A DNA stretch of 64,000 bases from the NCBI GenBank assembly GCA_963576725.1, contig OY755243.1, positions 40,595,243 to 40,659,242 on the forward strand, given 5' to 3'. How positions within the stretch are numbered: position 1 is the first letter of the stretch; each line of letters starts with the position of its first letter. The stretch is from Azorinus chamasolen. Lineage: Eukaryota; Mollusca; Bivalvia; Cardiida; Solecurtidae. The notes under the pieces were generated by a model that saw nothing but the letters and a program-made list of their open reading frames with translations, was not told the DNA's origin and ran no database searches. A program made the translations under genes and the position numbers. Shown piece after piece: positions 5,331 to 64,000 of the stretch.

Positions 5331-5441
5331 GGTCCACCTTACAGTTTGACACTTTCTCATTATAACAGCTCACAGTTCAAGCGAACACATTTTTCAGCAA
5401 AATAAGAAGTTATCTCTCAATCGGACACCATTTATCAAACA

Positions 5442-26485: not shown

Positions 26486-26807
26486 TACAGTAAAACCTCT
26501 CTATAACGACCACTAAATTACAGTATAACCTCTCTATAACGGCAACTAAATTACAGTTAAACCTCTCTATAACGGCCACTAAATTACAGTATCTCTATAA
26601 CGGCCACTAAATTACATTAAGTATTTTCTGTTAAAGGCAGGTGGTATTTAGGGCAGGTGGCCGCTTAAAGCAAGGTGAAAGTAAAACAGAACGCTCCTAT
26701 AGGAGCGTTCTGTTTTACTTTCATCTTGCTTTAAGTTGCCACCTGCCCTAAATACCAAATAATTAACACAATTTAGTGGCCGTTATATATAGCGAGGCTT
26801 TACTGTA
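26486..26807. mobile_element. Family D element with a multiplied left end
   Basis: Four successive copies of the end (ACAGTAAAACCTCTCTATAA, CGGCCACTAAATT, ~33-35 bases; the last lacks AAACC) fill 26488-26618. A single right end (AATTTAGTGGCCGTTATATA, TTTACTG) closes it. The body has a long palindrome on GAACGCTCCTATAGGAGCG. Confidence 0.9.
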
Positions 26808-27509
26808 CAATGGTTAACGAGTGGGATATGTTTAAAGTAGCGGAATAAAAGTTAATATGAGACACTAACGAACTCCCTTATATTCTCGGGTGATCGCACA
26901 TTGTAGTCAGGAAACCCAAGGGACGAAGACAAAAGGTGAAAAGAGACACAACAGTGCATGATTACAGTCTGTTGTTGCATTGCTATGGGTGGCCTAACAG
27001 AGACACTGCATGGCGCGTCGACATTCGTAAATATGGTTCAGAACTCTTCAGATCCAGATCAACTACCGCGATTGAAAGCGGTGTCTGAACAAGGTCTACA
27101 TAGCTTACAAGTATCTCAACAAGGTAGAATTATCTCGTATATGTTCCCTACAAAGAACAGATTCTGATCAGATGCCACGTTCCAGCATTGCCTTTAACCA
27201 TAACGATGGGGTTGGGGCGGACTCTTCGCTTGAATAGGCATATTGATAATAATATCAATGTATTCTGCGTGAAGCACCATGTGAAATAAAGGGCAACATT
27301 TGGAGATAGAAAACATTGGTGTGTCTGTGTAAGCGCATCTGTTGTTTCGATTCATACGTTATTTCTGAATCAAAGTAAAATATAAAGAAACAGGTAGAAA
27401 TCAGTAATGACTTGAAACCATTTGTGTTTTTGGTACCCTTCCTATAGAGTAGAACCAGACCAGTCACCGGGCCTGAGCTATGTCACCTTAACCTTTAATG
27501 TGCTGAAAA
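26808..27509. other. No gene supported
   Basis: A short stretch at 27030-27060 (CAGAACTCTTCAGATCCAGA) resembles family C. The rest shows no repeat or exon I can defend. Confidence 0.4.
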
Positions 27510-27757
27510 TTAACCATTTCCTCTTTGAATATTCATGTAAGAAATAACGACGTCATTAATATTAATTAGTTTAATTGTTATAATAGCACATGGACACATG
27601 GATTTTTGGCCATGGCAGAAACTGTAGAATCGCGTCTATATCATATCATAAGCAAACAAAGCAGACCCTGGTCAGACGGTTCCTACAGAAGTCTTTGATC
27701 TGGGTCTATCCTGTTTGCAAATGGGTAGAAACGCGTATTTATGGGGTAAAGGGTTAA
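27510..27757 (+). mobile_element. Family B element, near-consensus
   Basis: TTAACCATTTCCTCTTTGAA, CATGTAAGAAATAACGACGT, TTGGCCATGGCAGAAACTG, CATAAGCAAACAAAGCAGAC, GATCTGGGTCTATCCTG and TGGGGTAAAGGGTTAA. It is a good reference copy. Its last TTAA starts the next element. Confidence 0.92.
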
Positions 27758-27877
27758 ATGAGTGCCAAACAGCTTGGATCCTGATCAGACGTCGAGGTTA
27801 CTGGGGTCTTGATCCACGATTGGATCCCAGTTGTTTGCAAACGCTAGTCTGGTCACGCTTAGGATGGGAAGGGCTAA
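27754..27877 (+). mobile_element. Short family C element in a TTAA chain
   Basis: TTAAATGAGTGCCAAACAGC, TTGGATCCTGATCAGACG, TTGCAAACGCTAGTCTGG and GGATGGGAAGGGCTAA. It shares its first four bases with B and its last four (CTAA) with E. Confidence 0.85.
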
Positions 27878-28118
27878 CCCCTTCTACTGTTCACGTCAAT
27901 ACTACCTGTAAACAGTGAAGACCCTGATGAGACAGCCCCTGCAGGAACTGTCTCATCAGGGTCTGCACTTTTTACAAGTTGATTGTGTAACCAGTGCAGT
28001 CGACAGCAGTGATTGCATATAGAAATATTTGTAGAACGTGAAGATGTATGTAGCTATTCAACAGGATATGGGCAAAGAATGGGAAATGTGTTTTAAAACT
28101 CAGCATGAGAAGGATTAA
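27874..28118 (-). mobile_element. Family E element in a TTAA chain
   Basis: CTAACCCCTTCTACTGTTCA to CAGCATGAGAAGGATTAA. The centre is GAGACAGCCCCTGCAGGAAC, TGTCTCATCAGGGTC. Minus relative to the copies at 47110-47356 and 54998-55248. Confidence 0.88.
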
Positions 28119-28166
28119 AGGGGAATACAAGGATGGTCAGATTATGTACATTATAGTATATAGCAA

Positions 28167-28374
28167 TACAGTAAAATCTCTCTATAACGGTCATTAAATT
28201 GTGTTTATTAGTTGGTATTTAGGACAGGTGGGTGCTTAAAGCAAGGTGAAAGTAAAACAGAACGCTCCTATAGGAGCGTTCTGTTTTACTTTCATCTTGC
28301 TTTAAGCGGCCATCTACCTTTAACACAAAATACTTGATGTAATTTAGTGGCCATTATAGATAGGTTTTACTGTA
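28167..28374. mobile_element. Family D element (208 bases)
   Basis: A clean copy between TAs: CAGTAAAATCTCTCTATAAC and GATAGGTTTTACTG. The inner stem runs from GGACAGGTGGGTGCTTAAAG through GAACGCTCCTATAGGAGCG to CTTTAAGCGGCC, and the core stem is uninterrupted. Confidence 0.93.
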
Positions 28375-31236: not shown

Positions 31237-32320
31237 TTAACCCCTCACTTATAGGGACGCCTTATGATGCCTTACACACGGGGTAGATCCTGATCAGACG
31301 CCTTATGATGCCTTACACACGGGGTAGATCCTGATCAGACGCCTTATGGTGCCTTACACACGGGGAAGTCACTGGTCAGATGCCTTATGATGCCTTACAC
31401 ACGGGGTAGATCCTGATCAGACGCCTTATGATGCCTTACACACGGGGTAGATCCTGGTCAGACGCCGTATGATGCCTTACACACGGGGAAGTCACTGGTC
31501 AGACGCCTTATGATGCCTTACACACGGGGAAGTCACTGGTCAGACGCCTTATGATGCCTTACACACGAGGAAGTCACTGGTCAGACGCCTTATGCTGCCT
31601 TACACACGGGGAAGACCCTGGTCAGACGCCTTATGATGCCTTTACACACGGGGAAGACCCTGATCAGACGATTTATGCTGCCTTACACACGGGGAAGACC
31701 CTGATCAGACGCCTTATGATGACTTTACACACGGAGTAGACCCTGATCAGACGCCTTATGATGACTTTACACACGGGGTAGACCCTGATCAGACGATTTA
31801 TGGTGCCTTACACACGGGGTACATCCTGATCAGACGCCTTATGATGACTTTACACACGGGGAATACCCTGATCAGACGCCTTATGATGACTTTACACACG
31901 GGGTAGACCCTGATCAGACGCCTTATGATGACTTTAAACATGGAGTAGACCCTGATCAGACGCCTTTTGATGACTTTACACACGGGGAAGACCCTGGTCA
32001 GACGCCTTATGATGCCTTACGCACGGAGTAGACCCAGATCAGACGCCTTATTATGCCTTACGCACAGGGTAGACCCTGATCAGACGCCTTGTGATGCCTT
32101 ACGCACGGAGTAGACCCAGATCAGACGCCTAATTATGCCTTACGCACGGGGTAGACCCTGATCAAACGGCTCGTGTAGGAGTAGGGATTGCTCTGTTTGC
32201 TTATGTAATGATTTAGTTTCTACCAGGGAAAACAGATCTGGCGGTCACGTGCCATTATAAACAATCAACTAATAAATAGTCATAATGTCATTATTTCTTT
32301 CAGGAATATTCATGAAGTAG
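31237..32320 (-). mobile_element. Family B element swollen by a 41-base satellite
   Basis: TTAACCCCTCACTTATAGGG (a B end) leads straight into the array. After it come GACCCTGATCAAACGGCTCG, GCTCTGTTTGCTTATGTAAT, GTGCCATTATAAACAATC and GTCATTATTTCTTTCAGGAA, the rest of a minus B. Confidence 0.75.
31257..32165. repeat. 41-base minisatellite, ~22 units
   Basis: The unit is GACGCCTTATGATGCCTTAC, ACACGGGGTAGATCCTGATC, A. Variants are GAAGTCACTGGTC, GTAGACCCTGATC and ATGACTTTACAC. It corresponds to B's own stretch from the end-proximal ACGC to the AGACCCAGATCAGACG arm. Confidence 0.93.
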
Positions 32321-37530: not shown

Positions 37531-37541
37531 TGTAAGATTTA
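37531..37541 (+). repeat. Left target-site duplication of the foldback element
   Basis: TGTAAGATTTA, repeated in the same orientation at 46392-46402, directly outside the matching inverted ends. Confidence 0.75.
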
Positions 37542-37587
37542 TGTGTGTGAAGCTGGCTCAGCAATCAACCATCAACCATCAACATTC

Positions 37588-37947
37588 GTTTTTATATAAG
37601 GAAATCGAATGTTGATCTGGAATGTCGAGCTCGCCCATCAACATTCGTTTTTATATAAGGAAATCGAATGTTGATCTGGAATGTCGAGCTCGTCCATCAA
37701 CATTCGATTTTATATAGAGAAACCGAATGTTGAGCTGGAATGTCGAGCTCGCCCATCAACATTCGTTTTTATATAAGGAAATCGAATGTTGATCTGGAAT
37801 GTCGAGCTCGCCCATCAACATTCGTTTTTATGTAAGAAAATCGAATGTTGATCTGGAATGTCCAGCTCGCCCATCAACATTCGTTTTTATATAGAGAAAC
37901 CGAATGTTGAGCTGGAATGTCCAGCTCGCCCATCAACATTCGTTTTT
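37588..37947 (+). repeat. 59-base satellite, outer left arm (6 units)
   Basis: The unit is CATCAACATTCGTTTTTATA, TAAGGAAATCGAATGTTGAT, CTGGAATGTCGAGCTCGCC. CAACATTCG and CGAATGTTG form a dyad in each unit. Element F cuts the array at CGTTTTT|ATATAAGG. Confidence 0.95.
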
Positions 37948-40098
37948 AGCTCACCTGGCACAAAGTGCCAGGTGAGGTATTGTGAGGGGGCAGTGTCCGG
38001 CGTCCGTCGTCGTGCGTCGTGCGTATGTGCGTCGTGCGTCGTCAACAATTTACTTAAACATCTTCTTCTCTGAAACCACAAAGCCTAGAGCTTTGATATT
38101 TTGTATGTAGAATCATCTAATGGTCCTCTACAAAGATTGTTCAAATTATGACCCCCGGACCAAAATTGGCCCCGCCCCGGGGCTTATCAGTTTTTCATAG
38201 GAAAATCTTTAAAAATCTTCTTCTCTGAAACCGTAAGGCCTAGACCTTTGGTATTTAGTATGTAGCATCATCTAATGGTCCGCTACAAAGATTGTTCAAA
38301 TTATGACCCCCGGGCCAAAAATGGCCCCGCCCCGGGGCTTATCAGTTTTTCATAGGAAAATCTTTATAAATCTTCTTCTCTAAAACCGTAAGGCCTAGAC
38401 ATTTGATATTTGGTATGTAGCATTATCTAATGGTCCTCTACAAAGATTGTTCAAATTGTGTCCCCCACACCAAAAATGGCCCCGCCGTGGGGCTTATCAG
38501 TTTTTCTTAGGAAAATCTTTAAAAATCTTCTCCCCTGAAACCGTAAGGCCTAGACCTTTGATATTTGGTATGTAGCATCATCTAACGGTCCTCTACAAAG
38601 TTTGTTCAAATTATGACCCCCGGACCAAAAATGGCCCGCCCCAGGCCTTATGAGTTTTTCATAGGAAAGTCTTTAAAAATCTTCTTCTCTGAAACCGTAA
38701 GGCCTAGACCTTTGGTATTTAGTATGTAGCATCATCTAATGGTCCTCTACAAAGATTGTTCAAATTATGACCGCCGGGCCAAAAATGGCCCCGCCCCGGG
38801 GCTTATCAGTTTTTCATAGGAAAATCTTAAAAAAATCTTCTTCTGAAACCGTAAGGCCTAGACCTTTGGTATTTAGTATGTAGCATCATCTAATGGTCCT
38901 CTACAAAGATTGTTCAAATTATGACCCCCGGACCAAAATTGGCCCCGCCCCGGGGCTTATCAGTTTTTCATAGGAAAATCTTTAAAAATCTTCTTCTCTG
39001 AAACCGTAAGGCCTAGACCTTTGGTATTTAGTATGTAGCATCATCTAATGGTCCGCTACAAAGATTGTTCACATTATGACCCCCGGGCCAAAAATGACCC
39101 CACCCCGGGGCTTATCAGTTTTTCATAGGAAAATCTTTAAAAATCTTCTTCTGAAATCGTAAGGCCTAGACATTTGATATTTAGTATGTAGCATTATCTA
39201 ATGGTCCTCTACAAAGTTTGTTCAAATTATGTCCCCCGGACCAAAAATGGCCCTGTCCCGGGGCTTATCAGCTTTTCAAAGGAAGATCTTTAAAAATCTG
39301 TAAGGCCTAGACCATTGATATTTGGTATGTAGCATTATCTAATGGTCCTCTACAAAGATTGTTCAAATTATGACCCCTAGATAAGCCCCGGGGCTTATCA
39401 GATTTTCATAGGAAAATCTTTAAAAATCTTCTCTGAAACTGTAAGGCCTAGACCATTGATATTTGGTATGTAGCATTATCTAATGGTCCTCTACACAGAT
39501 TGTTTAAATTATGACCCCTGTACCAAATATGGCCCCACCCCGGGGCTTATCAGTTTTTCTTAGGACAATCTTTAAAAATATTCTTCTCTGAAACCGTAAG
39601 GCCTAGACCTTTGATATTTGGTATGTAGTCTCATCTAACAGTCTTCTACAAAGATTGTTCAAATTATGACCCCTTGACCAAAATGGCCCCGCCCGGGGGC
39701 TTATCAGTTTTTCATAAAAAGCTTCTTCTCTGAAACCGTAAGGTCTAGACCTTTGATTTTTAGTATGTAGCATCATCTAATGGTCCTCTACAAAGATTGT
39801 TCAAATTATGACCCCTGGACCAAAATGGCCCCGCCCCTGGCTTATCAGTTTTTCATAGGACACTCTTTAAAATCTCCTGTGAAATTGTAAGGCCCGGAAC
39901 TTTGAAACTTATATGAAGCATCGTCTAATGTTCCTTTATTTAGATTGCTCAAATTTGAAACTCAAGGCCTAAAATTATGGCCCTTGGTTTCATATTGGCC
40001 CCAATCTGAAGCTTACTTATTTTTACATAGAAATACAGTGTATGCATATGCCTATAGTAACCAGGTGAGCGATTTAGGGCCATCATGGCCCTCTTGTT
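37948..40098. mobile_element. Element F, 2.15 kb, inserted in the left arm
   Basis: The left end is AGCTCACCTGGCACAAAGTG, CCAGGTGAG, a hairpin, followed by CGTCGTGCG repeats. The right end is CCAGGTGAGCGATTTAGGGC, CATCATGGCCCTCTTGTT. Removing it restores an exact satellite unit, with no target duplication beyond at most one base. I recall similar ends as a common non-autonomous repeat in bivalve genomes. The hairpin end, internal tandem units and insertion between A and T suggest a Helitron-like element, but a canonical CTRR end is not evident. Confidence 0.75.
38062..39900. repeat. 155-base tandem repeat inside F, ~12 units
   Basis: Each unit has CTTCTTCTCTGAAACCGTAA, GGCCTAGACCTTTGGTATTT, AGTATGTAGCATCATCTAAT, GGTCCTCTACAAAGATTG, TTCAAATTATGACCCCCGG, GGCCCCGCCCCGGGGCTTAT. 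The first units are spaced exactly 155 bases; later units carry indels and decay to the right. Confidence 0.93.
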
Positions 40099-41283
40099 AT
40101 ATAAGGCAATCGAATGTTGATCTGGAATGTCGAGCTCGCCCATCAACATTCGTTTTTATATAAGGAAATCGAATGTTGAGCTGGAATGTCGAGCTCGCCC
40201 ATCAACATTCGTTTTTATATAGAGAAACCGAATGTTGAGCTGGAATGTCGAGCTCGCCCATCAACATTCGTTTTTATATAGAGAAACCGAATGTTGAGCT
40301 GGAATGTCGAGCTCGCCCATCAACATTCGTTTTTATATAAGGAAATCGAATGTTGATCTGGAATGTCGAGCTCGCCCATCAACATTCGTTTTTATATAAG
40401 GAAATCGAATGTTGATCTGGAATGTCGAGCTCGCCCATCAACATTCGTTTTTATATAAGGAAATCGAATGTTGATCTGGAATGTCGAGCTCGCCCATCAA
40501 CATTCGTTTTTATATAAGGAAATCGAATGTTGATCTGGAATGTCGAGCTCGCCCATCAACATTCGTTTTTATATAGAGAAACCGAATGTTGAGCTGGAAT
40601 GTCGAGCTCGCCCATCAACATTCGTTTTTATATAGAGAAACCGAATGTTGATCTGGAATGTCGAGCTCGCCCATTAACATTCGTTTTTATACAAGGAAAC
40701 CGAATGTTGATCTGGAATGTCGAGCTCGCCCATCAACATTCGTTTTTTATATAGAGAAACCGAATGTTGTGCTGGAATGTTGAGCTCGCCCATCAACATT
40801 CGTTTTTATATAAGGAAATCGAATGTTGATCTGGAATGTCGAGCTCGCCCATCAATATTCGTTTGTATATAGAGAAACCAAATGTTGAGCTGGAATGTCG
40901 AGCTCGCCCATCAACATTCGTTTTTATATAAGGAAACCGAATGTTGATCTGGAATGTCGAGCTCGCCCATCAACATTCGTTTTTATACAAGGAAACCGAA
41001 TGTTGATCTGGAATGTCGAGTTCGCCCATCAACATTCGTTTTTTATATAGAGAAACCGAATGTTGTGCTGGAATGTTGAGCTCGCCCATCAACATTCGTT
41101 TTTATATAAGGAAATCGAATGTTGATCTGGAATGTCGAGCTCGCCCATCAACATTCGTTTTTATATAAGGAAATCGAATGTTGAGCTGGAATGTCGAGCT
41201 CGCCCACCAACATTCGTTTTTATATAGAGAACCCGAATGTTGATCTGGAATGTCGAGCTCGCCCATCAACATTCGCCATTATA
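40099..41283 (+). repeat. 59-base satellite, inner left arm (~20 units)
   Basis: Continuation of the outer left array. Two unit types alternate irregularly: ATAAGGAAATCG with TTGATCTGG, and ATAGAGAAACCG with TTGAGCTGG. A few carry TTGTGCTGG plus an extra T. Confidence 0.95.
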
Positions 41284-42028
41284 TAGGGAAATATTTTTCT
41301 CTGAATATACAGGATTATCAGCTTTCATCTTTGGCACATAGCATCATCTGTAGGTCCGCTACAAAAAATTTGCCCATGGTGTAAAAATTGGACCCGGCCG
41401 AGGGGTTGCCACTTTCTATAGGAACATATAGCTAAAATGCTGAAAATGTCTCTGAAACTGGAAGCTCTTAGCTTTCAAGATGGCAAATTACGTCACCTTG
41501 AAGTCCGCTGCGGTCAGATAAGGCCCAGCTACATGGGTAGTCAGATTTCTATAGAAAAATATAGTGAAAAACTTGATTTTTCTCCAATGATTGGCTTGTG
41601 AACGATACCAGGGTCATCATGGTAATATTGATGTGTAATGCAAAGTTTGACCTATTGATTGTTGATAAATTTATGTGAACATGTGCGTCTGGGGTATAGG
41701 AATTTTTAAAGATCATACTCAAGTCAAACATATATGTTTGATAGTTAGTCATGATAAGTATCAGTATGTAACTGCTGCCTATTCATTAAAATACATATAT
41801 TGATTTTAATAACCGCAGGCCTTAAATTATATAATCAGATGTGGCATATCTGTGTCCTATGAAAACATTTACCTTTTAGTTTTTATCTAGGACGTTTTAT
41901 TGAAGATAGCCCTTCTTAGAAACCGACTTTTCGTTTTAGGAATATACATGTATCTTGAAAATATGCTTTATATCTTCTTTATTACATCTGCATGTGTAAA
42001 TTTGGCATTTAGTCAATTCTAAAGGTGG
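41284..42028. other. Middle of the foldback element, first part
   Basis: 41290-41560 is a diverged F-type unit (CTTTGGCACATAGCATCATC, GTAGGTCCGCTACAAAAAAT). 41561-42028 is unassigned AT-rich DNA. No transposase-like frame is present. Confidence 0.6.
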
Positions 42029-43028
42029 TGTCACACTAGAGCGTATGGCACGAACGTATGCGAACGTATGAGAAAAAAATGCTCATACGCTCGCATACGC
42101 AGATAAACGCTATGGGTAGTATAGGCATACGTTGTATAAGCTGCCATATGTCGGTGTACGTTCTCATACGCAGAGAACGAAACTAATTTTTGAACATGTT
42201 CAAAGCAGTTCAGCGTATACGAGCGTATGAAGTATACTAGGTCAAATACGTTTCACATACGGTGGCATGAAGGCGGCCAGTAAATCTATCATATGGATAG
42301 CGTATCAGTAACGTAATTTTAACGTATGTCTGACGAACGACTAACGTTTTTAACCTATTTCTGGCTATCCATACGCTATTCATGCGCTCACATGAGGTAA
42401 GAATACGTTACTTATATGCTCACACACGCTATCTATAGGCTGATATACGCTACATTGACGGTGACATAAGTTGACACATGCTCGTATACGTTTCCCATGC
42501 GTTGCCTATACGCCAGATATACGGTACGCATACGCTATTCACGCGCTGCTAATACGTTCATCGAAGATAGAGGCGGAAAATTACGGATTCATACGCTCAA
42601 AAGTTGTGCGTATGCCCAGGATTTCATACGCACGCTATGCATACGTTCGTCTCATACGCTATAGTGTGACATGGGCATAATTTAACGTATGTCTGACGAA
42701 TGACTAACGTATTTAAAGTATTTAACCTATTTCTGGCTATCCATACGCTGCTCTTGCGCTCACATGCAGTAAGAATATGTTACTCATATGCTCGCATACG
42801 CTAGTTATACGCTGATATACGCTTCACTGACGGTGACATAAGTTGACACACGCTCGTATACGATTCTCATGCGCTGCATATACGCCAGATATACGGTACA
42901 CATGCGCTGGTAGTAGGTTCATCGAAGATAGTGTTGGGAAATTTCGGGTTCATACGCTCAACAGTTGTGCGCATGATCAGTTTTTCATACGCTATGCATA
43001 CGTTCGTCTCATACGCTATAGTGTGACA
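42029..43028. mobile_element. CGTATG-rich inverted-repeat element, partly duplicated
   Basis: The left end TGTCACACTAGAGCGTATGG, CACGAACGTATG is mirrored at the right by CATACGTTCGTCTCATACGC, TATAGTGTGACA. That right end occurs twice (to 42671 and to 43028) because a ~360-base block is duplicated. The whole body is studded with CATACGC/GCGTATG on both strands. Class unknown. Confidence 0.75.
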
Positions 43029-43432
43029 GGACCATTAAGACAATTCGCAAGTGCCCATAACCAGTAACACTTTGAGTATGAATTTGAGAACCATGCATTG
43101 CAATTGTGATTTCATATTTATAACACGTGATGTTTGATTTTGCAGTTTATAAGAAGTTTAAATATTACAATGGATTAACGAACATGTTTTACAGCTGCTT
43201 AAGTTAAATATTAGCTTTTAAATTTGAACTCATTATGTTAATGAATATGGCTATGGACCCATTGTATTTGGAAAGTTCCCAATAAAAATGTTTAAACAAA
43301 TGGTGCATAGTATTGTCATATGTCAGGCATATTCAGTTGTGTTATTCACATTGTATGATATTCCGCAAGAGAAATTCTATATAGCTACAATGGTAGAATG
43401 GGGGAGTTTACATTCCAGCTTAGCATTCTGTT
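43029..43432. other. Middle of the foldback element, last part
   Basis: Unassigned AT-rich sequence. CCAATAAAAATG at 43280-43291 contains a possible polyadenylation signal, but nothing upstream looks coding. Confidence 0.4.
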
Positions 43433-46357
43433 TCCTTATATAAAAACGAATGTTGATGGGCGAGCCAAACAGTCCAGCTCGACATTCAGTTTCTCTATAT
43501 AAAAACGAATGTTGATGGGCGAGCTCGACATTCCAGATCAACATTCGATTTCCTTATATAAAAACGAATGTTGATGAGCGAGCTCAACATTCCAGCTCAA
43601 CATTCGGTTTCTCTATATAAAAAACGAATGTTGATGGGCGAGCTCGACATTCAAGTTCGACATTCAGTTTCCCTATATAATGGCGAATGTTGATGGGCGA
43701 GCTCGACATACCAGATCAACATTCGATTTCCTTATATTAAAACGAATGTTGATGGGTGAGCTCGACATTCCAGATCAACATTCGGTTTCCTTATATAAAG
43801 ACGAATGTTGATGGGCGAGCTCGACATTCCAGATCAACATTCGGTTTCCTTATATAAAAAACGAATGTTGATGGGCGAGCTCGACATTCCAGATCAACAT
43901 TCGATTTCCTTATATAAAAACGAATGTTGATGGGCGAGCTCGACATTCCAGATCAACATTCGATTTCCTTATATAAAAACGAATGTTGATGGGCGAGCTC
44001 GACATTCCAGATCAACATTCGATTTCCTTATATAAAAATGAATGTTAATGGGCGAGCTCGACACTCCAGCTCAACATTCGATTTCCTTATATAAAAACGA
44101 ATGTTGATGGGCGAGTTCGACATTCTAGATCAACATTCGATTTCCTTCTATAAAAACGAATGTTGATGGGCGAGCTGGACATTCCAGATCAACATTCGGT
44201 TTCTCTATATAAAAACGAATGTTGATGGGCGAGCTCATCATTCCAGCTCAACATTCGGTTTCTCTATATAAAAACGAATGTTGATGGGCGAGCTCAACAT
44301 TCCAGATCAACATTCGGTTTCCTTATATAAAACGAATGTTGATGGGCGAGCTCGACATTCCAGATCAACATTCGATTTCCTTATATAAAAATGAATGTTG
44401 ATGGGCGAGCTCGACATTCCAGCTCAACATTCGATTTCCTTATATAAAAACGAATGTTGATGGGCGAGCTCGACATTCCAGATCAACATTCGATTTCCTT
44501 ATAAAAAACGAATGTTGATGGGCGAGCTCGACATTCCAGCTCAACATTCGATTTCCTTATACATGTATAAAAACGAATGTTGATGGGCGAGCTCGACATT
44601 CCAGATCAACATTCGATTTCCTTATATAAAAATGAATGTTGATGGGCGAGCTCGACATTCCAGCTCAACATTCGATTTCCTTATATAAAAACGAATGTTG
44701 ATGGGCGAGCTCGACATTCCAGCTCAACATTCAATTTCCTTATATAAAAACGAATGTTGATGAGCGAGCTCAACATTCCAGCTCAGCATTCGGTTTCTCT
44801 ATATAAAAACGAATGTTGATGGGCGAGCTCGACATTCCAGATCAACATTCGGTTTCTCTATATAAAAACGAATGTTGATGGGCGAGCTCGACATTCCAGA
44901 TCAACATTCGATTTCCTTATATAAAAACGAATGTTGATCGGCGAGCTCGACATTCCAGATCAACATTCGATTTCCTTATATAAAAACGAATGTTGATGGG
45001 CGAGCTGGACATGCCAGATCAACATTCGATTTCTCTATATAAAAACGAATGTTGATGGGCGAGCTCGACATTCCAGCTCAACATTCGATTTCCTTATATA
45101 AAAACGAATGTTGATGGGCGAGCTCGACATTCCAGCTCAACATTCAATTTCCTTATATAAAAACGAATGTTGATGAGCGAGCTCAACATTCCAGCTCAGC
45201 ATTCGGTTTCTCTATATAAAAACGAATGTTGATGGGCGAGCTCGACATTCCAGATCAACATTCGGTTTCTCTATATAAAAACGAATGTTGATGGGCGAGC
45301 TCGACATTCCAGATCAACATTCGATTTCCTTATATAAAAACGAATGTTGATCGGCGAGCTCGACATTCCAGATCAACATTCGATTTCCTTATATAAAAAC
45401 GAATGTTGATGGGCGAGCTGGACATGCCAGATCAACATTCGATTTCTCTATATAAAAACGAATGTTGATGGGCGAGATCGACATGCCAGATCAACATTCG
45501 ATTTCTCTATATAAAAACGAATGTTGATGGACGAGCTCGACATTCCAGATCAACATTCGGTTTCTGTATATAAAAACGAATGTTGATGGGTGAGCTCGAC
45601 ATTCCAGATCAACATTCGATTTCCTTATGTAAAAACGAATGTTGATGGGCGAGCTCAACATTCCAGCTCAACATTCAGTTTCTCTATATAAAAACGAATG
45701 TTGATGGGCAAGCTCAACATTCCAGATCAACATTCGGTTTCCTTATATAAAAACGAATGTTGATGGGCGAGCTCGACATTCCAGATCAACATTCGATTTC
45801 CTTATATAAAAACAAATGTTGATGGGCGAGCTCGACATTCCAGATCAACATTCGATTTCTCTATATAAAAACGAATGTTGATGGGCGAGCTCGACATTCC
45901 AGATCAACATTCGGTTTCTGTATATAAAAACGAATGTTGATGGGTGAGCTCGACATTCCAGATCAACATTCGATTTCCTTATATAAAAACGAATGTTGAT
46001 GGGCGAGCTCGACATTCCAGATCAACATTCGGTTTCCTTATATAAAAACGAATGTTGATGGGCGAGCTCGACATTCCAGATCAACATTCGATTTCCTTAT
46101 ATAAAAACGAATGTTGATGAGCGAGCTCAACATTCCAGCTCAACATTCGGTTTCTCTATATAAAAAACGAATGTTGATGGGCGAGCTCAACATTCTAGAT
46201 CAACATTCGGTTTCCTTATATAAAAACGAATGTTGATGGGCGAGCTCGACATTCCAGACCAACATTCGATTTCCTTATATAAAAACGAATGTTGATGGGC
46301 GAGCTCGACATTCCAGATCAACATTCGATTTCCTTATATAAAAACGAATGTTGATGG
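43433..46357 (-). repeat. 59-base satellite, right arm (~49 units)
   Basis: Inverse complement of the left arm (CGAATGTTGATGGGCGAGCT, CGACATTCCAGATCAACATT, CGATTTCCTTATATAAAAA). A 413-base block (7 units) is tandemly duplicated: the variant string TGAGCGAGCTCAACATTCCA with AGCTCAGCATTCGG occurs at 44761 and again at 45174. Confidence 0.96.
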
Positions 46358-46391
46358 TTGATGGTTGATTGCTGAGCCAGCTTCACACACA

Positions 46392-46402
46392 TGTAAGATT
46401 TA
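46392..46402 (+). repeat. Right target-site duplication of the foldback element
   Basis: TGTAAGATTTA, identical to 37531-37541. The adjoining bases (GTCGCC before the left copy, CAGAGA after the right) would be joined at the empty site. Confidence 0.75.
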
Positions 46403-48001: not shown

Positions 48002-48225
48002 CACATTCCCTCATATTGACGCCATTTGACGCCATTGTAAAAGTCACGTTCTGAAACCATTGTAATAAATAGAGCATTTGCTCCATAGGAGCAAATGCTC
48101 TATTTATTACAATGGTTTCAAAACTACACAATTCTAAAAAGAGTATTTTCTCTAGTAAATGCTCCTTCTCGGTAGATTTACTAAAGAGGTATGATCTAAA
48201 AATAACCTATGAGGGAATGGGTAAA
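47998..48225 (-). mobile_element. Family A element with matching arm changes
   Basis: TTAACACATTCCCTCATATT to ATGAGGGAATGGGTAAA. Both arms carry the same change: CCATTGTAATAAATAG and CTATTTATTACAATGG, against GTGATA/TATCAC in other copies. Confidence 0.92.
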
Positions 48226-48342
48226 TTAGCTTCAAGAACCCCATGTTGAAGAAGCACGTGCCATTTATGAGTTTGAAGAGGCAGTCAGTCTGATTCCGAA
48301 ATGACACACACTATATTTGATTCCACTAATGATTTATGACAA

Positions 48343-48722
48343 TACAGTAAAACACATCTACAGCTACAACCAGAAATACGCCTGACATTGGATCTTAACC
48401 CTTTCCCTGTTCTATGTTTATTACAAATTACAATACCTTTCAATTGATCGTTCATGGACAAAATGTTTATAATGAAATATGGAAGGTGGAACATTGTAGC
48501 CAGTTTAGAAAGTCACGAAACAGATTTAGTCAAATCCCATTAGCAAACAGAGCAGACCCTGATCAGAAGGCTCCTATAGGAGCCGTCTGATCTGGGTCTA
48601 CTCTATTTTCAAATGCGTGAAAAGAGGTTTATATGAGGGAAATGGTTAAAGGCATATAGTAGCTTAGCAGGTCTTAAGTCATGCAGAAAGATTCAATACA
48701 CAGCTTTGCATATCTTTGACTG
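48343..48722. mobile_element. D2-type host with a B2 insertion
   Basis: TACAGTAAAACACATCTACA begins the host. After the B2 copy come AGTAGCTTAGCAGGTC, AAGTCATGCAGAAAG and AGCTTTGCATA. The host's right end is degraded. Confidence 0.6.
48395..48648 (+). mobile_element. Family B2 element
   Basis: TTAACCCTTTCCCTGTTC, AATTACAATACCTTTCAATT, AAATATGGAAGGTGGAACAT, core AAGGCTCCTATAGGAGCCGT, ATGAGGGAAATGGTTAA. B2 shares B's right half but has a different left half. The second full copy is at 55279-55532. Confidence 0.9.
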
Positions 48723-48944
48723 TATCACACGTGGACTCGCGTCGGAAACCAATTAGATCCAACACAATGCAAGTAATGTAAAATTAATATTTAACAGTAT
48801 TAATTGTATATAAATGTAATTTCATTTTGAATATTCTGGTGTTTACTAAGCATCGCGGAATTGCGTGCAAACAGTCTGACGTATGCTTAGACGTCGAGTA
48901 CTTTGGATGTCAAAGTTCGGAGACACACCATTTACACATTATAC

Positions 48945-49200
48945 ATGTGTTTCCCTGTTGACTATTCATGTAAGAAATAATAACATAGTGAATATTTATT
49001 AGTTAAATATTTATAATGACATGCAGGACAGTTTGGGCATTTGCAGAAACTGTTAAATCAAATCTATATACATTGTACATGTATTCAATAAGCAAACAGG
49101 GTATAGACTCTGATCAAACGACCCCGACATGAACAGTCTGATCTGGGTCTACTCTGTTTGCAAAGTCGTGAAGAGGTGTTAATATGAAGAAATGGGTGTA
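48945..49200 (+). mobile_element. Family B element
   Basis: TTTCCCTGTTGACTATTCAT, GTAAGAAATAATAACATAG, GCAGAAACTGTTAAATC, AATAAGCAAACAGGG, GATCTGGGTCTACTCTG and ATGAAGAAATGGGTG. Terminal TTAA lost on both sides. Confidence 0.8.
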
Positions 49201-49254
49201 GAGATACACAAGCAAGCCTGAATATTCGTTACACAAACTCTGTAGTACAATTGA

Positions 49255-49480
49255 TTAAGTCGTCCCCTAATACTGACGCCCTTTGACGCCTTTGTAAAAG
49301 TTGCTTTATGAAACCATTGTGATAAATAGAGCATTTGCTCCTAAGGAGAAAATGCTCTATTTATCACAATGGTTTCAAAACTACACAATTCTATTTTTTC
49401 CTGTTCTCTAGTAAATACTCCCTTTCGGTAGATTTACCAAAAGAGGTTGGGTCTAAAATAGCTTATGAGGTAATGGTTAA
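49255..49480 (-). mobile_element. Family A element
   Basis: TTAAGTCGTCCCCTAATACT to TATGAGGTAATGGTTAA; hairpin tip GCTCCTAAGGAGA. Confidence 0.9.
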
Positions 49481-49647
49481 AGTCTATTTAGTATCATTCT
49501 GTTAACTCAGGAGCAGTTTGATCTGGGTCTGCACTATAGGCGTACATTTGTCTGTCCACATATCTAGGGCAATTAGGACATGCAGCATACCCCACCAGAC
49601 AACCATTTGGTTAATCGTACTAAAGTTATAGAAACTAAGTCCTTTTC

Positions 49648-49834
49648 ACATTAAGCTTGACCTATCTCGCATTTGCACACAGTTAGATCCAGATGAGACG
49701 ACGAATAACGCTGTGCCTCATCAGGATCCTAGCTGTTTCACCGTCGGTTAAAAGTAAAAATGAATCGGATGAAGGCAAAAATGTGTAACAGATCAGAGTT
49801 TTGGTAGAACTTTTTTTGCAGCAGGAGAAGGGTT
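49648..49834 (-). mobile_element. Family C element, minus
   Basis: TTAAGCTTGACCTATCTCGC, ATTTGCACACAGTTAGATCC, AGATGAGACGACGAATAACG, CATCAGGATCCTAGCTGTTT, CACCGTCGG and GAGAAGGGTTTAA. Confidence 0.82.
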
Positions 49835-49937
49835 TAAGAAAGCATGAGGCAGTGTTCCTATTTCGTATGTGCCTCAATCAATAGCAAGAGGCACATCGCC
49901 AGACTTCTCTGTGTACATTAGCAGTGCATTTCGTGAT

Positions 49938-50176
49938 ATTACCCTTTCCCTCATACAAACGCCTTGTAAAACCTTTGCAAAAACAGAGTAGACCCAGATC
50001 AGACGGCTCCTATAGCAGCTGTCTAATCTTGGTATGCTCTGTTTGCTTATGGAATTACATGTATATAGATCTGATCCTACGATATTTGTCAAAAGTTTAC
50101 ATAATAAAAACTAAGTTAATAAATATTCAAGATGTGATCAATATCCATACAGAAATGTTCATTTGGGAATAGGATA
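49938..50176 (-). mobile_element. Family B element
   Basis: ATTACCCTTTCCCTCATACA, ACAGAGTAGACCCAGATCAG, CGGCTCCTATAGCAGC, ATATAGATCTGATCCTACG; the AT-rich end is decayed. Confidence 0.78.
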
Positions 50177-50179
50177 ATC

Positions 50180-50274
50180 CATGCAAACAGTTTGGATCCA
50201 TATAATCCATGCAAACAGTTTGGATCCAGATGAAATGCCGAGTAACTAACTCGGCTACTCATCAGCATCCATAT
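50180..50274. mobile_element. Family C core with a short duplication
   Basis: AATCCATGCAAACAGTTTGG occurs twice (near 50177 and 50206). Then come ATGAAATGCCGAGTAACTAA, CTCGGCTACTCATCAGCATC. Confidence 0.7.
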
Positions 50275-50503
50275 TTAACCCATTACCTCATAGGCTATTT
50301 TTAGATCCAATCTCTTTGAATAAATCTACCGAAAAGGAGCATGAACTAGAGAAAAGGAAAACTTTAGAATATTGTAGTTTGAAACCATTGTGATAAATAG
50401 AGCATTTGCTCCTATAAGAGCAAATGCTCTATTTATCACAATGGTTTCACAAAGTGACTTTTACAGAGTCGTCAAAAGTCGTCAATATGAGGGAAAGGGT
50501 TAA
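50275..50503 (+). mobile_element. Family A element, left of a head-to-head pair
   Basis: TTAACCCATTACCTCATAGG to ATGAGGGAAAGGGTTAA, hairpin intact with CTATAAGAG at the tip. It serves as a good reference copy for A. Confidence 0.95.
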
Positions 50504-50711
50504 CCCATTCCTCATATTGACGCTTTTTGACACCTCTGTAAAAGTCACTTTTTGAAACCATTGTTATAAGTACAGCATTTGCTCCATAGGAGCAAATGCT
50601 ATATTTATCACAATGGTTTCAAAACTACGCATTTCTAAAATTTTCCTTTTTCTAGTAATAGCTCCTTTTCAGTAGATTGGGTCTAAAATAGCTTATGAGG
50701 GAATGTGTTAA
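50500..50711 (-). mobile_element. Family A element, right of a head-to-head pair
   Basis: It starts with the TTAA that ends the previous copy and runs to GAGGGAATGTGTTAA. It has a ~12-base deletion near GTAGATTGGG, and left-arm changes (TTGTTATAAGTACAGC). Confidence 0.93.
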
Positions 50712-50859
50712 GAGATATGAAAGAAGATAATTGGCCTACAAAACGTTACGTCGATGAAGAAAAAGACGTTGAGGAAAATTGGCCTAAAACACGGTACAAC
50801 GTGTTTTGTGTTATAATAGATGGACAGTGTCCACACAGATTTGATATTCTATGTTAAGA

Positions 50860-51055
50860 ACTAGACTCATAATGTGAACTTGACTCAAAATGTAAACTTG
50901 ACTCAAAATGTGGATTCAAAATGTGAACTAGATTTAAAATGTGAACTAGACTCCAAATATGTATTCAAAATGTGAACTAAATCCAAAATGTGAACTAGAC
51001 TCCAAATATGTATTCAAAATGTGAACTAAATCCAAAATGTGAACTAGACTCCAAA
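50860..51055. repeat. AATGTGAACTAGACTC minisatellite
   Basis: Irregular repeats of AATGTGAACTAGACTCCAAA, TATGTATTCAA and shorter forms. It is a low-copy, imperfect array. Confidence 0.8.
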
Positions 51056-51145
51056 TGAAGGTTCTTGAATCTGTATGTATCTGGTATATAGCATACTGGA
51101 CAACTAGTGTCTATAAATAGTGATGTCTGCTTAAGTGATAGTGTC

Positions 51146-51376
51146 TTAACCCTTTGCTCCCGAAATATCCATGTAAGAAATAATGGCATCATGCACATTG
51201 ATAAAATTAATCTTTTATAAGTGTACATTGTATATGGACAAAGGGATGTGGCCATGGCAGAAAATGTTGATTAGTTCATAAGCAAACAGAACAAAACCTG
51301 ATCAGACGGCTTCTGCCGGTTCATCTGATCTGGGTCTGCTCTGTTTGTTTCGGGGTACCGACGGAGAAAATGATTA
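51146..51376 (+). mobile_element. Family B element
   Basis: TTAACCCTTTGCTCCCGAAA, CATGTAAGAAATAATGGCAT, GTGGCCATGGCAGAAAATG, CATAAGCAAACAGAACAAAA, GATCTGGGTCTGCTCTG, GAAAATGATTAA. The core tip is CGGCTTCTGCCGG. Confidence 0.85.
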
Positions 51377-51498
51377 AATTAGCAATGTCTTAACTTTTAA
51401 ACTGGGTTAGCGTATCAATCAGTTTGACTTTGCACGAACAGTACGATGCCTCACCTGGAATCAAACAGTACCCCACCCACCCATATTAGCATACTAAA

Positions 51499-52460
51499 GG
51501 TTAACCCCTAATATATCGAAAAATAACATAATGGCTGAAACATTGAACTAAGGATCCCTGAAACATGATCTACTGATCACTGAAACATACATTGATCTAC
51601 TGATCCCTGAAACATTGATCTACTGATCACTGAAACATACATTGATCTACTGATCAGTAAAACATTAATCTGTTGATCACTGAAACATACATTGATCTAC
51701 AGATCACTGAAACATTGACCTACTGGCCCCTGAAACATTAATCTACTGATCACTGAAACATACATTGATCTACTAATCACTGAAACATTAATCTGTTGAT
51801 CACTGAAACATACATTAATCTACTGATCACTGAAACATTGATCTACTGAAATATTGATCTACTGATCGCTGAAACATTGATCTACTGATCACTTAAACGT
51901 TGATCTACTGGTCACTGACACATTGATCTACTGATCTATTGATCACTGAAACATTGATCTACTAATCACTGAAACATTGATCTACTGACCCCTGAAACAT
52001 TAATCTACTGATCACTGAAACATACATTGATCTACTAATCACTGAAACATTAATCTGTTGATCACTGAAACATACATTAATCTACTGATCACTGAAACAT
52101 TGATTTACTGAAATATTGATCTACTGATCGCTGAAACATTGATCTACTGGTCACTGACACATTGATCTACTGATCTATTGATCACTGAAACATTGATCTA
52201 CTAATCACTGAAACATTGATCTACTGACCACTGAAACATTGATCTACTGATTAATGAAACATTGATTTACTGACTTATTGAAATATGGATCTACTGATCT
52301 ACTGATCACTGAAACATTGATCTACCGATCAACTCTTTAAACAACGAAACGGCATGAGTGCCAAACAGCTTGGATCCTGACGAGTAACTCGGCTTCTCAT
52401 CTGGATCCTAGCTATTAGTAAATCACTGTAAGCTCGCGATCGGGCATGATAAGGGAGAAA
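51499..52460 (+). mobile_element. Family C element swollen by a 23-26-base array
   Basis: TTAACCCCTAATATATCGAA, AAATAACATAATGGCTGAAA opens it. The array follows, then GAGTGCCAAACAGCTTGGAT, CCTGACGAGTAACTCGG, TTCTCATCTGGATCC and GGGCATGATAAGGG close it. Confidence 0.65.
51535..52328. repeat. CTGAAACATTGATCTACTGATCA minisatellite
   Basis: About 33 units of 22-27 bases (CACTGAAACATTGATCTACT, GAT), with an insertion variant ACATACATTGATC. A block near 51690-51900 recurs at about 51960-52160, including the ACTGAAATATTGATC and GTCACTGACACATTG variants. Confidence 0.93.
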
Positions 52461-52486
52461 CAAAAACAGAACAATTGTTACAGTAC

Positions 52487-52531
52487 CTCTTTCGCTGTTT
52501 TCTCTGTCTTCTCGCTACCCTTCTTCGACAT
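52487..52531 (-). CDS. First coding exon of an unidentified minus-strand gene
   Basis: Read on the minus strand from 52531, ATG opens 15 codons (MSKKGSEKTEKTAKE) and the exon ends GAG followed by GTACTG, a good splice donor at 52486-52481. The start is supported by an A at -3 and by an in-frame TAA at 52546-52544, so the frame cannot extend upstream without splicing. The peptide is Lys/Glu/Thr/Ser-rich and hydrophilic, with no signal peptide or membrane segment. It ends in phase 0, which fits the phase-0 start of the exon at 24174-24267. Joining the two gives a charged, then Ser/Pro-rich N-terminus, as is common in nuclear or signalling proteins; I do not recognise the family. It lies in one of the few transposon-poor stretches of the window, as expected around a promoter and first exon. 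Confidence 0.55.
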
Positions 52532-53400
52532 ATTTCTGTACAATTACGTTGTACCTTGACACCGTGGTAACCGTTTTTACACTCCTTGTTTTTCGAATTA
52601 ATTGTTATAGAATCACCTTAAAGGCACACTCGTTACCTCTATTGACCGAAGACTCAACCTATATGCGACAAAATTAGAGGTGCACTAGCAAATCGGCCCC
52701 TGGTATTGTAAAACTAGTGTTAAGTCAGTGTTTTCCTGTTGTAAGTTCAAATATTAACACCTGTCATGTGTGCTTCCCCCATTATCACTAAACATCCAAT
52801 AAAGGTGTAAAACTACTGGAGTTGACGGGGGACCGCGAAGGAGCCGGCCAGCTGGTGATCCACTGCAGATCCTTTCATCAATAAACTAACAAAAGCTCTC
52901 ACTCCAAACTACCTCTACCGAATCCTATAAACTTCCGAGTATGGGTACTGTACACAGGCAAAAAGAACCGATGTTCATTACAGTATGCCGTGTCACATGA
53001 TCTCTCAGTAGCAGCAGCCGAAAAATCAAATACATGGAGGACACGGGAGCCGAATTGTTTTAAGGCAACAGTTATACACCCTAGCGGAGCATGCGTGGAG
53101 AAAAGTCTGTAAGCAAGCAGGGCCTTTTAGTATGAAGATGGTGTTTATAATCCGGCAAGTGACAGAGCGAATAGAGATCTATAGTGTATGGGAAGATGAT
53201 ATTGGAAAGACACATGTAGATCAACATTTATAGGAGAACACATGACAAAAGTAGATCTCTACACTTGCTGAAGAGGGATTGAGTACATAATGAAAGATGT
53301 CATACAGGAACGTATCGATTTTAGAAAAGACTTACACAATCATACCATAATGTCATTTTACACACACACACCATAATACCAACTCGTATTTTTCTGTAAT
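52532..53400 (-). promoter_or_regulatory. Putative 5' UTR and promoter region
   Basis: This stretch lies immediately upstream of the minus-strand start codon. It lacks the short palindromic transposons found almost everywhere else, and around 52810-53110 it is more GC-rich than its surroundings. No TATA box or transcription start can be fixed by eye. The call rests on position and on the absence of repeats. Confidence 0.3.
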
Positions 53401-53586
53401 TGCATGCTGTCATTTGCCTATATAAACGTCCTAAAGTGCATGGCTATGTTCTGCATACATTTATTTCCCGTTTGTGATTGTTCTATGAATCAGTCGATTT
53501 CTCTTTCTTCTTTCTCTATCTCTCTTCTCTTTGTGTCTGTCTGTATGCCTGTCTGTCATTCTGCATGTCCCTCCCTCTCCCCCCCT

Positions 53587-53589
<3 letters not shown>

Positions 53590-53635
<46 letters not shown>
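53590..53635. repeat. (TC)n microsatellite
   Basis: 23 TC dinucleotides in a wider pyrimidine-rich tract (53500-53790). The overlapping 60-120-codon frames are low-complexity artefacts. Confidence 0.95.
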
Positions 53636-53639
<4 letters not shown>

Positions 53640-53723
53640 CATCTCCCCTCCCCATCTTTGTCTATTTTCTCTATGTGCCACTTCACTTCTCTCAGTCTCT
53701 TTCTCTTTCTCTGTCTCTCTCTA

Positions 53724-53734
53724 GCTCTGTCTGG

Positions 53735-53766
<32 letters not shown>

Positions 53767-53783
53767 GTCTGTCTGTCTGTCTC
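53724..53783. repeat. (TGTC)n microsatellite
   Basis: TGTCTGTCTGTC repeats with single-base interruptions. Confidence 0.9.
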
Positions 53784-53827
53784 TCTAAAACGGCTACTCA
53801 AAAGATGTATAATTCTGAATTTACAAA

Positions 53828-53993
53828 CACGTGGTAGCTTTATACAGGACCATAGCAGCTTTCTGTATTATTTTCCCTGATTTAAGCAACCACCTGTTTT
53901 TACAGACTCCTTTTTAACAAATTATGTGATACCTGTATTAAAATCTCAAATTTGTCTTATTTCGAGTGATCGTATTATAGAGGCTTTATTGTA
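53828..53993. mobile_element. Family D2 element, left-truncated
   Basis: CACGTGGTAGCTTTATACAG, CAGCTTTCTGTATTATTTTC, TTTAAGCAACCACCTG and AGGCTTTATTG, then TA. The TA is also the start of the next D2. Confidence 0.7.
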
Positions 53994-54189
53994 CAGTAGA
54001 ACCCGGCTTAAGCGGCCATAAAAAGGGTCTAAATATGGGTCTGTAGGGCAGGTGGTAGCTTTAATGCAGGCCAAAAGTAACGCAGAAAGCTCATACTGCC
54101 ATGCATTAAGCAACCATGGTTCACCTGCTTTTTAGGATTTCTGCGTTAAAACAATTCAAAGTCGCTTAATACAGACAAGTTCTACTGCA
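53992..54189. mobile_element. Family D2 element sharing TA with its neighbour
   Basis: TACAGTAGAACCCGGCTTAA to AGACAAGTTCTACTGCA. The inner stem is GGCAGGTGGTAGCTTTAATG..CATTAAGCAACCATGG; the tip is reduced to AAGCTCATACTG. Confidence 0.85.
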
Positions 54190-54279
54190 CTTACTCTTAA
54201 ATATTTCGCGCCAACAAATGTCGTCTGCTAAATTTTTCTTTTGCTTCGTGCTTCAAAGTGATATGTTCATCCTATTATT

Positions 54280-54353
54280 TACAAACATGTAGCCAGATTG
54301 TCAAACTGTATAGATCCTGATGAGACAACATGTGACATCTGGCTGCAAACTGT
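54280..54353 (+). mobile_element. Family C fragment
   Basis: GATTGTCAAACTGTATAGAT, CCTGATGAGACAACATG, CATCTGGCTGCAAACTG; it abuts the TTAA of the next element. Confidence 0.6.
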
Positions 54354-54582
54354 TTAACCTATTCCCCCATAGGCTATTTTAAGACCCAGCCTGTTTGAAT
54401 AAATCTACCGAAAAGGAGCAGTAACCAGAAAAAAGGAAAACTTTAGATTTTTGTAGTTCTGAAACCATTGTGATTAATAGAGAATTTGCTCCATAGGAGC
54501 AAATGCTCTATTTATCACCATGGTTTCCAAACGTGCGTTTTACAGAGGCGTCCAAAGCCGTCAACATGGGGGAATGGTTTAA
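54354..54582 (+). mobile_element. Family A element
   Basis: TTAACCTATTCCCCCATAGG to ATGGGGGAATGGTTTAA; several hairpin arm changes (GATTAATAGAGAATTTG; CACCATGG). Confidence 0.9.
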
Positions 54583-62487: not shown

Positions 62488-63902
62488 TCGGTTATAACTG
62501 TGTGCCTTAACAATTAACATGAAGACTGTGCGCCTTAACTGTTAACATGAAGAGACAACCTCTTAACTGTGCGCCTTAACTAATAACATGAAGAGACAAC
62601 CTCCTAACTGTGCGCCTTAACTAATAACATGAAGAGACAACCTCCTAACTGTGCGCCTTAACTAATAACATGAAGAGACAACCTCTTAACTGTGCGCCTT
62701 AACTAATAACATGAAGAGACAACCTCCTAACTGTGCGCCTTAACTAATAACATGAAGAGACAACCTCCTAACTGTGCGCCTTAACTAATAACATGAAGAG
62801 ACAACCTCTTAACTGTGCGCCTTAACTAATAACATGAAGAGACAACCTCCTAACTGTGCGCCTTAACTAATAACATGAAGAGACAACCTCTTAACTGTGC
62901 GCCTTAACTAATAACATGAAGAGACAACCTCTTAACTGTGCGCCTTAACTAATAACATGAAGAGACAACCTCTTAACTGTGCGCCTTAACTAATAACATG
63001 AAGAGACAACCTCCTAACTGTGCGCCTTAACTAATAACATGAAGAGACAACCTCCTAACTGTGCGCCTTAACTAATAACATGAAGAGACAACCTCTTAAC
63101 TGTGCGCCTTAACTAATAACATGAAGAGACAACCTCCTAACTGTGCGCCTTAACTAATAACATGAAGAGACAACCTCTTAACTGTGCGCCTTAACTGTTA
63201 ACATGAAGAGACAACCTCTTAACTGTGCGCCTTAACTAATAACATGAAGAGACAACCTCTTAACTGTGCGCCTTAACTAATAACATGAAGAGACAACCTC
63301 TTAACTGTGCGCCTTAACTAATAACATGAAGAGACAACCTCCTAACTGTGCGCCTTAACTAATAACATGAAGAGACAACCTCTTAACTGTGCGCCTTAAC
63401 TAATAACATGAAGAGACAACCTCCTAACTGTGTGCCTTAACTAATAACATGAAGAGACAACCTCCTAACTGTGTGCCTTAACTAATAACATGAAGAGACA
63501 ACCTCCTAACTGTGTGCCTTAACTAATAACATGAAGAGACAACCTCTTAACTGTGCGCCTTAACTAATAACATGAAGAGACAACCTCCTAACTGTGCGCC
63601 TTAACTATTATCATGAAGAGACAACCTCCTAACTGTGCGCCTTAACTAATAACATGAAGAGACAACCTCCTAACTGTGTGCCTTAACTAATAACATGAAG
63701 AGACAACCTCCTAACTGTGTGCCTTAACTAATAACATGAAGAGACAACCTCCTAACTGTGCGCCTTAACTATTATCATGAAGAGACAACCTCCTAACTGT
63801 GTGCCTTAACTAATAACATGAAGAGACAACCTCCTAACTGTGCGCCTTAACTATTATCATGAAGAGACAACCTCCTAACTGTGCGCCTTAACTAATAACA
63901 TG
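62488..63902. repeat. 41-base satellite, ~34 units
   Basis: The unit is CTGTGCGCCTTAACTAATAA, CATGAAGAGACAACCTCCTA, A. Variable sites are CCTCT/CCTCC, GTGCG/GTGTG and AATAAC/ATTATC/GTTAAC. GTGTG and ATTATC units cluster at the right end (63420-63870). No host element is recognised; C-like GACGTCACACCTGGATCAAA follows. Confidence 0.97.
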
Positions 63903-64000
63903 ATAAGTGTAATCTTGACGTCACACCTGGATCAAAACTATTTGATACATGGCCTATAACAAAAAGAAAGATAATTCAAACAGGAAAAATGAAGCAGACG

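Follow-up and report, generated by a model that had tools for sequence, protein, structure and literature searches.

A link between Foldback elements and satellite DNA has been known for a long time, though often from non-autonomous relics in which no enzyme is visible. Here we describe an 8.85-kb unit within a 64,000-nucleotide stretch of contig OY755243.1 of the bivalve Azorinus chamasolen (the whole stretch is called the window below). In this unit two arms built of a 59-bp satellite lie in opposite orientation between inverted ends, and the whole is flanked by a direct repeat. The unit is very probably a non-autonomous Foldback-type DNA transposon moved in trans. Copies sharing its ends are referred to as family 1, and a sister family with other satellite arms as family 2.

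The closest systems are described as follows in the sections of the reports cited here. Rehavkus has 9-bp target duplications, a minisatellite near the terminus and a PHD finger, and in the section cited it is placed in arthropods and annelids only (PMC6446971). Tetris of Drosophila virilis, an example of a relic reported without an enzyme, is non-autonomous and has long inverted repeats with inner tandem repeats, a variable middle and duplications of 8-10 bp (PMC4079207). Tm1 of root-knot nematodes has foldback-like composite termini with a variable number of units, transposase-bearing members and mostly 9-bp duplications (8-10 bp in 45 of 53) (PMC3169594). Galileo of Drosophila, which belongs to the P superfamily, has long inverted repeats, inner tandem repeats and extra internal transposase-binding sites (PMC4079207, PMC3688188). 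The Pearl/Helentron satellite carriers of bivalves are mobile elements with satellite-like arrays (PMC7492417), and further literature for comparison is found in PMC10218199, PMC13359780 and PMC8268682. Our literature search, whose coverage did not extend to Repbase reports and most subscription journals, gave, among the papers listed, no satellite-armed foldback family in a mollusc by title or start of abstract.

Repeated movement of family 1 as a unit

The ends of the window copy, read from TGTGTGTG (37542 and 46391), are exact inverse complements over 132 bp (first mismatch at offset 132) and lead into 59-bp arrays of opposite orientation (left 37576-37948 and 40097-41291, right 43410-46357). 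Exact inverse ends and opposed 59-base arrays had been described in the original prediction, made from the letters of the window. The direct repeat TGTAAGATTTA, which the prediction had placed on both sides of the unit, was found at two places in the window, 37531 and 46392, and nowhere else in it. A 35-nt end gave two matches in the window (up to 3 mismatches) versus none in 100 shuffles. A scan of the window for direct repeats of 8-12 bp directly next to 16-bp inverted ends, from which arrays and palindromic repeats were excluded, gave the window copy as the sole pair with zero mismatches; unfiltered, array units and palindrome-ended repeats pair as well.

The test that had been set beforehand, a genome search for further ends with differing direct flanks, came out in favour of a mobile unit. 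The genome searched was the assembly holding the window (1.72 Gb, 137 contigs). The 29-nt end of family 1 (up to 2 mismatches) matched at 122 forward and 120 reverse places, 242 in total, and the reversed control at none (0 + 0). For the 99-bp end at least 40 exact full-length matches were found (40 of 363 candidates scored). At least 100 exact end places were seen; many of them formed convergent pairs, at least 41 by eye and roughly 1 to 38 kb in size, and the others were unpaired. Viral contigs held no match to a 27-nt end.

Flanks were compared for 31 pairs that had been picked before their flanks were seen: 20 of the 22 pairs shorter than 10 kb, taken whole, 10 of the 19 longer pairs (about 13 to 37.5 kb), of which the flanks were read, and the window copy. 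A 9-bp target duplication was perfect in 27 of the 31 pairs, a 37.5-kb pair on contig C4 included, and had at most one mismatch in 29. The base outside TGTGTG was A, and the base after CACACA was T, in all 31 pairs, and the same A/T rule held in eight single ends (L001-L008). Since this A and T are invariant, both belong to the terminus and the duplication is 9 bp long. The duplication of the original prediction is thus real in kind and shorter than the 11 bp given there: the latter length was rejected as the 9-mer GTAAGATTT plus a chance T/A match in the window copy, expected about one time in sixteen. The true end reads ATGTGTGTG..., and the element in the window extends from 37541 to 46392 (8852 bp).

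A common non-coding middle of about 2.1 kb was present in 15 of 21 whole copies, with an insertion inside that of L019 and an interruption in that of L022. Its left junction was the same in all 15 save for small differences, and for 12 of them the right junction could be matched too. No stop-free frame within the middle of any copy was longer than 104 codons. Thirteen middles differed pairwise by 1.1-4.6% (mean 2.2%) and from the majority sequence by 0.5-2.8%. This low divergence argues that family 1 is young, and the shared, little-diverged middle that one founder moved as a unit. The prediction that the inverted satellite pair moved as one piece is therefore supported by the recurring ends and duplications, with the addition that in most copies a conserved middle moved along with it.

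Unbroken paralogous sites were also seen for some copies. The two flanks of a copy were joined minus one 9-mer and compared with the window and with loci longer than 2 kb, and in 5 of 22 cases the joined flanks aligned across the junction to unbroken sequence. The best case was L010, whose joined flank matched the interior of the family-2 copy L079 without gaps (98.9% over 189 bp), followed by L019 (93% over 119 bp, gapless), a copy on contig C8 (91-92%), L024 (78%) and L021 (77%, with gaps). Repeated movement of family 1 as a unit from one founder is thus shown by its 9-bp duplications, its conserved ends and some unbroken paralogous sites.

The arms vary in length: counts of satellite units ran from 4 to 78 per arm among the 21 whole copies, and one arm of a longer copy had more than 150 units (over 9 kb). 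With the copies oriented by their middle, a variant of the first satellite unit was found (by eye) in the left arm of 9 of 15 copies and in the right arm of none of the 15; the two arms have held separate identities since one founder. Homogenisation of the arms within a copy was rejected, the sharing of rare units being 0.016 (15 elements), hardly above the 0.0145 of left and right arms from different elements; same-side arms shared more (0.024 and 0.044; medians all 0). Segmental duplications, such as a 7-unit repeat in the right arm of the window copy, point to unequal exchange. The six whole copies without the middle each have a centre of their own (by eye), which would fit separate deletions at the palindrome centre.

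An inverted repeat, at most 11 bp long and able to form a hairpin, is present in each 59-bp unit (two variants were folded). Of the 1465 units counted, 1337 measure exactly 59 bp, and 789 of these keep the complete set of 11 pairs. The five commonest combinations showed no compensatory change at any of these pairs, so the hairpin could not be shown to matter. A copy of the terminus within the 59-bp unit was also considered and rejected, with scores of 13 on the same strand (443 of 2000 shuffles as good) and 12 inverted (860 of 2000); an earlier test on one strand had given 283 of 2000. The 37.5-kb copy on C4 (97370000-97399700; L049-L051) owes its length to insertions nested in an arm, among them a retroelement (judged Ty3/gypsy-like by eye) and further repeats. 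Ten open fragments of the long copies gave nothing above cut-off in Pfam.

A sister family with a DDE-type transposase gene

On contig C8 (64313431-64332110; L056, L055 and L057) the middle of a family-1 copy is split by an 11,661-bp element of family 2. Its arms of a 68-bp satellite are inverse to each other, its inverted terminus is perfect over 93 bp, its middle measures 3.4 kb and the 9-bp duplication that flanks it, AAAAGTTGT, is perfect; the unsplit site corresponds to 42599-42607 of the window. The family-2 terminus, ATGTCCGTGAAGTTGGCT, agrees with that of family 1 at 15 of 18 positions, a score reached by none of 200,000 shuffles, and despite these like termini the 59-bp and 68-bp satellites are unrelated. 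The terminus pattern ATGTNNGTGAAGTTGGCT had 88 + 88 matches in the genome and none in the control; among 100 family-2 end places listed, one has GT in place of CC at NN. Ten further pairs showed a 9-bp duplication, perfect in eight and with one mismatch in two, so that overall 9 of 11 were perfect and all had at most one mismatch.

In its consensus form the 68-bp unit includes a stretch that matches the inverted terminus at 19 of 21 positions (0 of 2000 shuffles as good), which suggests that the arms of family 2 may act as reiterated transposase-binding sites. The corresponding inverted match between the family-1 end and the family-2 unit was weak (94 of 2000 shuffles as good).

Nesting of the two families was observed both ways, with a family-2 copy in a family-1 middle and the family-1 copy L010 in sequence common to the family-2 interior. 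On contig C3 one family-1 and one family-2 copy (77966843-77986152 and 77986839-78006094) lie less than 700 bp apart.

Three near-identical genes for a DDE-type transposase were found, at 15.55-15.62 kb from a right end of family 2. The sister family, whose ends are nearly identical to those of family 1, has such a gene in three places, and its spacing to the right end is fixed. Two gene-bearing copies in which both ends were seen measure 32.7 and 39.3 kb. A 40-kb copy on C8 had no gene in the 7.8 kb at its centre, only the 68-bp array and a short insert. The 965-codon frame at L082:2746-5643, of which the genome has three near-identical copies at this spacing, has no Pfam match and was assigned to the DDE type from its invariant residues and from the fold predicted for a relative; the predicted fold of this transposase type is IS256/P/hAT-like. 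Enzymes of the IS256/Mutator/P/hAT type have D, D and E residues with C-x2-H between the second D and the E, and an RNase H-like fold, and the family-2 enzyme appears to share all of these, the fold as modelled for a relative. The family-2 protein (P0001) matched no Pfam family at E<=1 and is hence PF10551-negative. Neither Pfam nor a search with one C4HC-type pattern, which had no stop-free match in the 17.2 kb around the gene, detected a PHD finger in the exons read; a PHD finger is present in two of nine relatives of the protein. A full-length copy with the exact ends of family 1 and a transposase, which the original prediction had proposed to look for, was not found among the listed pairs; the transposase genes lie in the sister family with related ends.

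Structure of the window copy and its surroundings

The boundaries of the window copy are collected in the table.

Table. Features of the family-1 copy in the window (positions of the window)
Feature	Position	Strand	Remark
Left target-site duplication GTAAGATTT, 9 bp	37532..37540	.	Boundary set from 31 copies
Left terminal domain ATGTGTGTGAAGCTGGCTCAGCAATCAACCATCAACC	37541..37577	+	29-nt core with 122+120 genome copies
Left arm, outer part, 59-bp satellite units	37578..37948	+	
Nested insertion in left arm, array of ~155-bp repeats, Pearl/Helentron-like in structure	37949..40096	.	Name by resemblance only (PMC7492417)
Left arm, inner part, 59-bp satellite units	40097..41291	+	
Non-coding middle domain, in 15/21 whole copies; longest stop-free frame here 77 codons	41292..43409	.	
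Right arm, inverse 59-bp satellite units, 7-unit segmental duplication within	43410..46355	-	
Right terminal domain, inverse of left one	46356..46392	-	
Right target-site duplication GTAAGATTT, 9 bp	46393..46401	.	

The 2.15-kb insertion that splits the left array looks like an element of the bivalve Pearl/Helentron type. It has a GGGCCATCATGGCCC hairpin near one end and no evident duplication at the site of insertion, and a diverged relative lies at 8631-9767 of the window. Such Pearl-like inserts, together with a Mytilus relative, would fit a bivalve host. A short element of inverted-repeat type, whose ends resemble GTGTCACACTAGAGCGTATG, lies in the middle of the window copy (42020-43037) and has an internal duplication at a spacing of 361-372 bp. 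Another repeat, whose ends are palindromic and CTCCTATAGGAG-like, is found repeatedly in the window, frequently in inverted pairs (e.g. 26704-28275, 36061 and 48091-54489). Further long minisatellite arrays with units of 22-44 bp were present at 3073-5338, 13438-15045, 17267-19066, 31256-32168 and 62525-63903; the scan of the window for direct repeats at inverted ends did not show any of them to be clearly framed by inverted termini and duplications. Pfam gave nothing above cut-off in 10 of the 28 window frames of at least 90 codons.

Mechanism, alternatives and known systems

We propose that a transposase made elsewhere in the genome would bind both ATGTGTGTGAAGCTGGCT ends of a family-1 copy and, in a cut-and-paste reaction, move the inverted satellite pair in one piece, leaving a 9-bp target duplication. 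The best supported form of this enzyme would be a Mutator/IS256-type DDE transposase with ATGTnnGTGAAGyTGGCT as its recognition sequence and 9-bp target duplications. Family 1 would then be a non-autonomous passenger of the family-2 enzyme or of a close relative, as their similar termini, equal duplication length and co-residence suggest. The satellite arms would lengthen and shorten by unequal exchange, and the middle could be lost through deletion at the palindrome centre.

Several observations weigh against this reading. The duplication is imperfect in 4 of the 31 pairs, with one mismatch in L013 and in L039/L040, two in L014 and as many as four of nine in L028. In the search for unbroken sites, the junction match of L021 is weak and gapped, 17 of the 22 joined flanks had no match among the window and the loci longer than 2 kb, and the flank of the window copy itself, the empty site that the original prediction had wanted to see, was among those without a match there. 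No transposase gene was found inside family-1 copies, and none of 30 P0001 matches lay inside a listed family-1 pair (by eye; the ends listed were fewer than 242).

Movement of family 1 by a classical Mutator-like element (MULE) transposase of the PF10551 type, unrelated to the family-2 enzyme, is unlikely. The genome does hold 36 PF10551 matches, several of them in long frames. None of the 36 was found in a listed family-1 pair or between listed family-2 ends (by eye; the listing is incomplete, with fewer than 242 family-1 ends), and it is the family-2 enzyme that sits in elements with almost identical termini. An assignment to the P superfamily, as a Foldback-like element of Galileo type and not of Mutator/Rehavkus type, is quite improbable. 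P elements duplicate 8 bp of their target and Galileo duplicates 7 bp, against 9 bp here, and Pfam detected no THAP domain in P0001 in the exons read. The PHD fingers in two of nine relatives are a feature given for Rehavkus in the section cited (PMC6446971). A local inverted duplication of a satellite array with a flanking repeat by chance, to which the segmental duplications in each arm and the abundance of minisatellites (88 rows) might have pointed as signs of local expansion, can be dismissed in view of the 242 ends, the 27 of 31 perfect duplications, the shared middle and the unbroken paralogous sites.

A Foldback-type transposon moved in trans thus accounts best for family 1, and a wider possibility may be put forward tentatively, as one that we would not yet favour. 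One transposase lineage, marked by the conserved ATGTnnGTGAAGyTGGCT terminus, might run several families with unrelated arms (59 and 68 bp); the arms would be interchangeable modules that grow by added binding sites, and the lineage would serve as an engine of satellite dispersal, placing inverted arrays, some as long as tens of kb, throughout a genome. One genome here combines a young, founder-derived family with mostly intact duplications and a sister family with open candidate transposase frames, and the terminus-copying satellite unit and the two-way nesting add to the same system. With a likely enzyme in a sister family, the system illustrates a way for satellites to be dispersed as transposon cargo and makes this spread directly testable.

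Compared with the known systems, both families differ from the rolling-circle Pearl/Helentron carriers with their central arrays, since they have inverted arms and 9-bp duplications; Helitrons and Helentrons leave no target duplication, and family 1 has one of 9 bp. Galileo would be alike in having binding sites within its repeats, as proposed for family 2, and differs in its P superfamily and in duplication length. The units of Tm1 are about 14 bp long, against 59 and 68 bp here, and its enzyme is Phantom-like, whereas the one described here is PF10551-negative. Unlike Tetris, with 220-bp repeats and no known transposase, the present system has 242 ends and a sister family that offers a candidate enzyme. 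Variable inverted termini of tandem repeats, mostly 9-bp duplications and a variable or absent middle are those of Foldback-type elements, and both families share with Rehavkus the 9-bp duplication and a minisatellite next to the inverted terminus at both ends. A Mutator-related DDE enzyme and the PHD finger in two of nine relatives of the family-2 protein are further likenesses to Rehavkus (e.g. Rehavkus-1_TC of Tribolium); unlike it, the family-2 gene was read without a PHD finger being seen, one arm here exceeds 9 kb and the gene-bearing family-2 copies measure 32.7 and 39.3 kb. The nearest known kind is that of the Foldback and Rehavkus-type relatives of Mutator, and we call the system Rehavkus-like rather than filing it as a member of that group.
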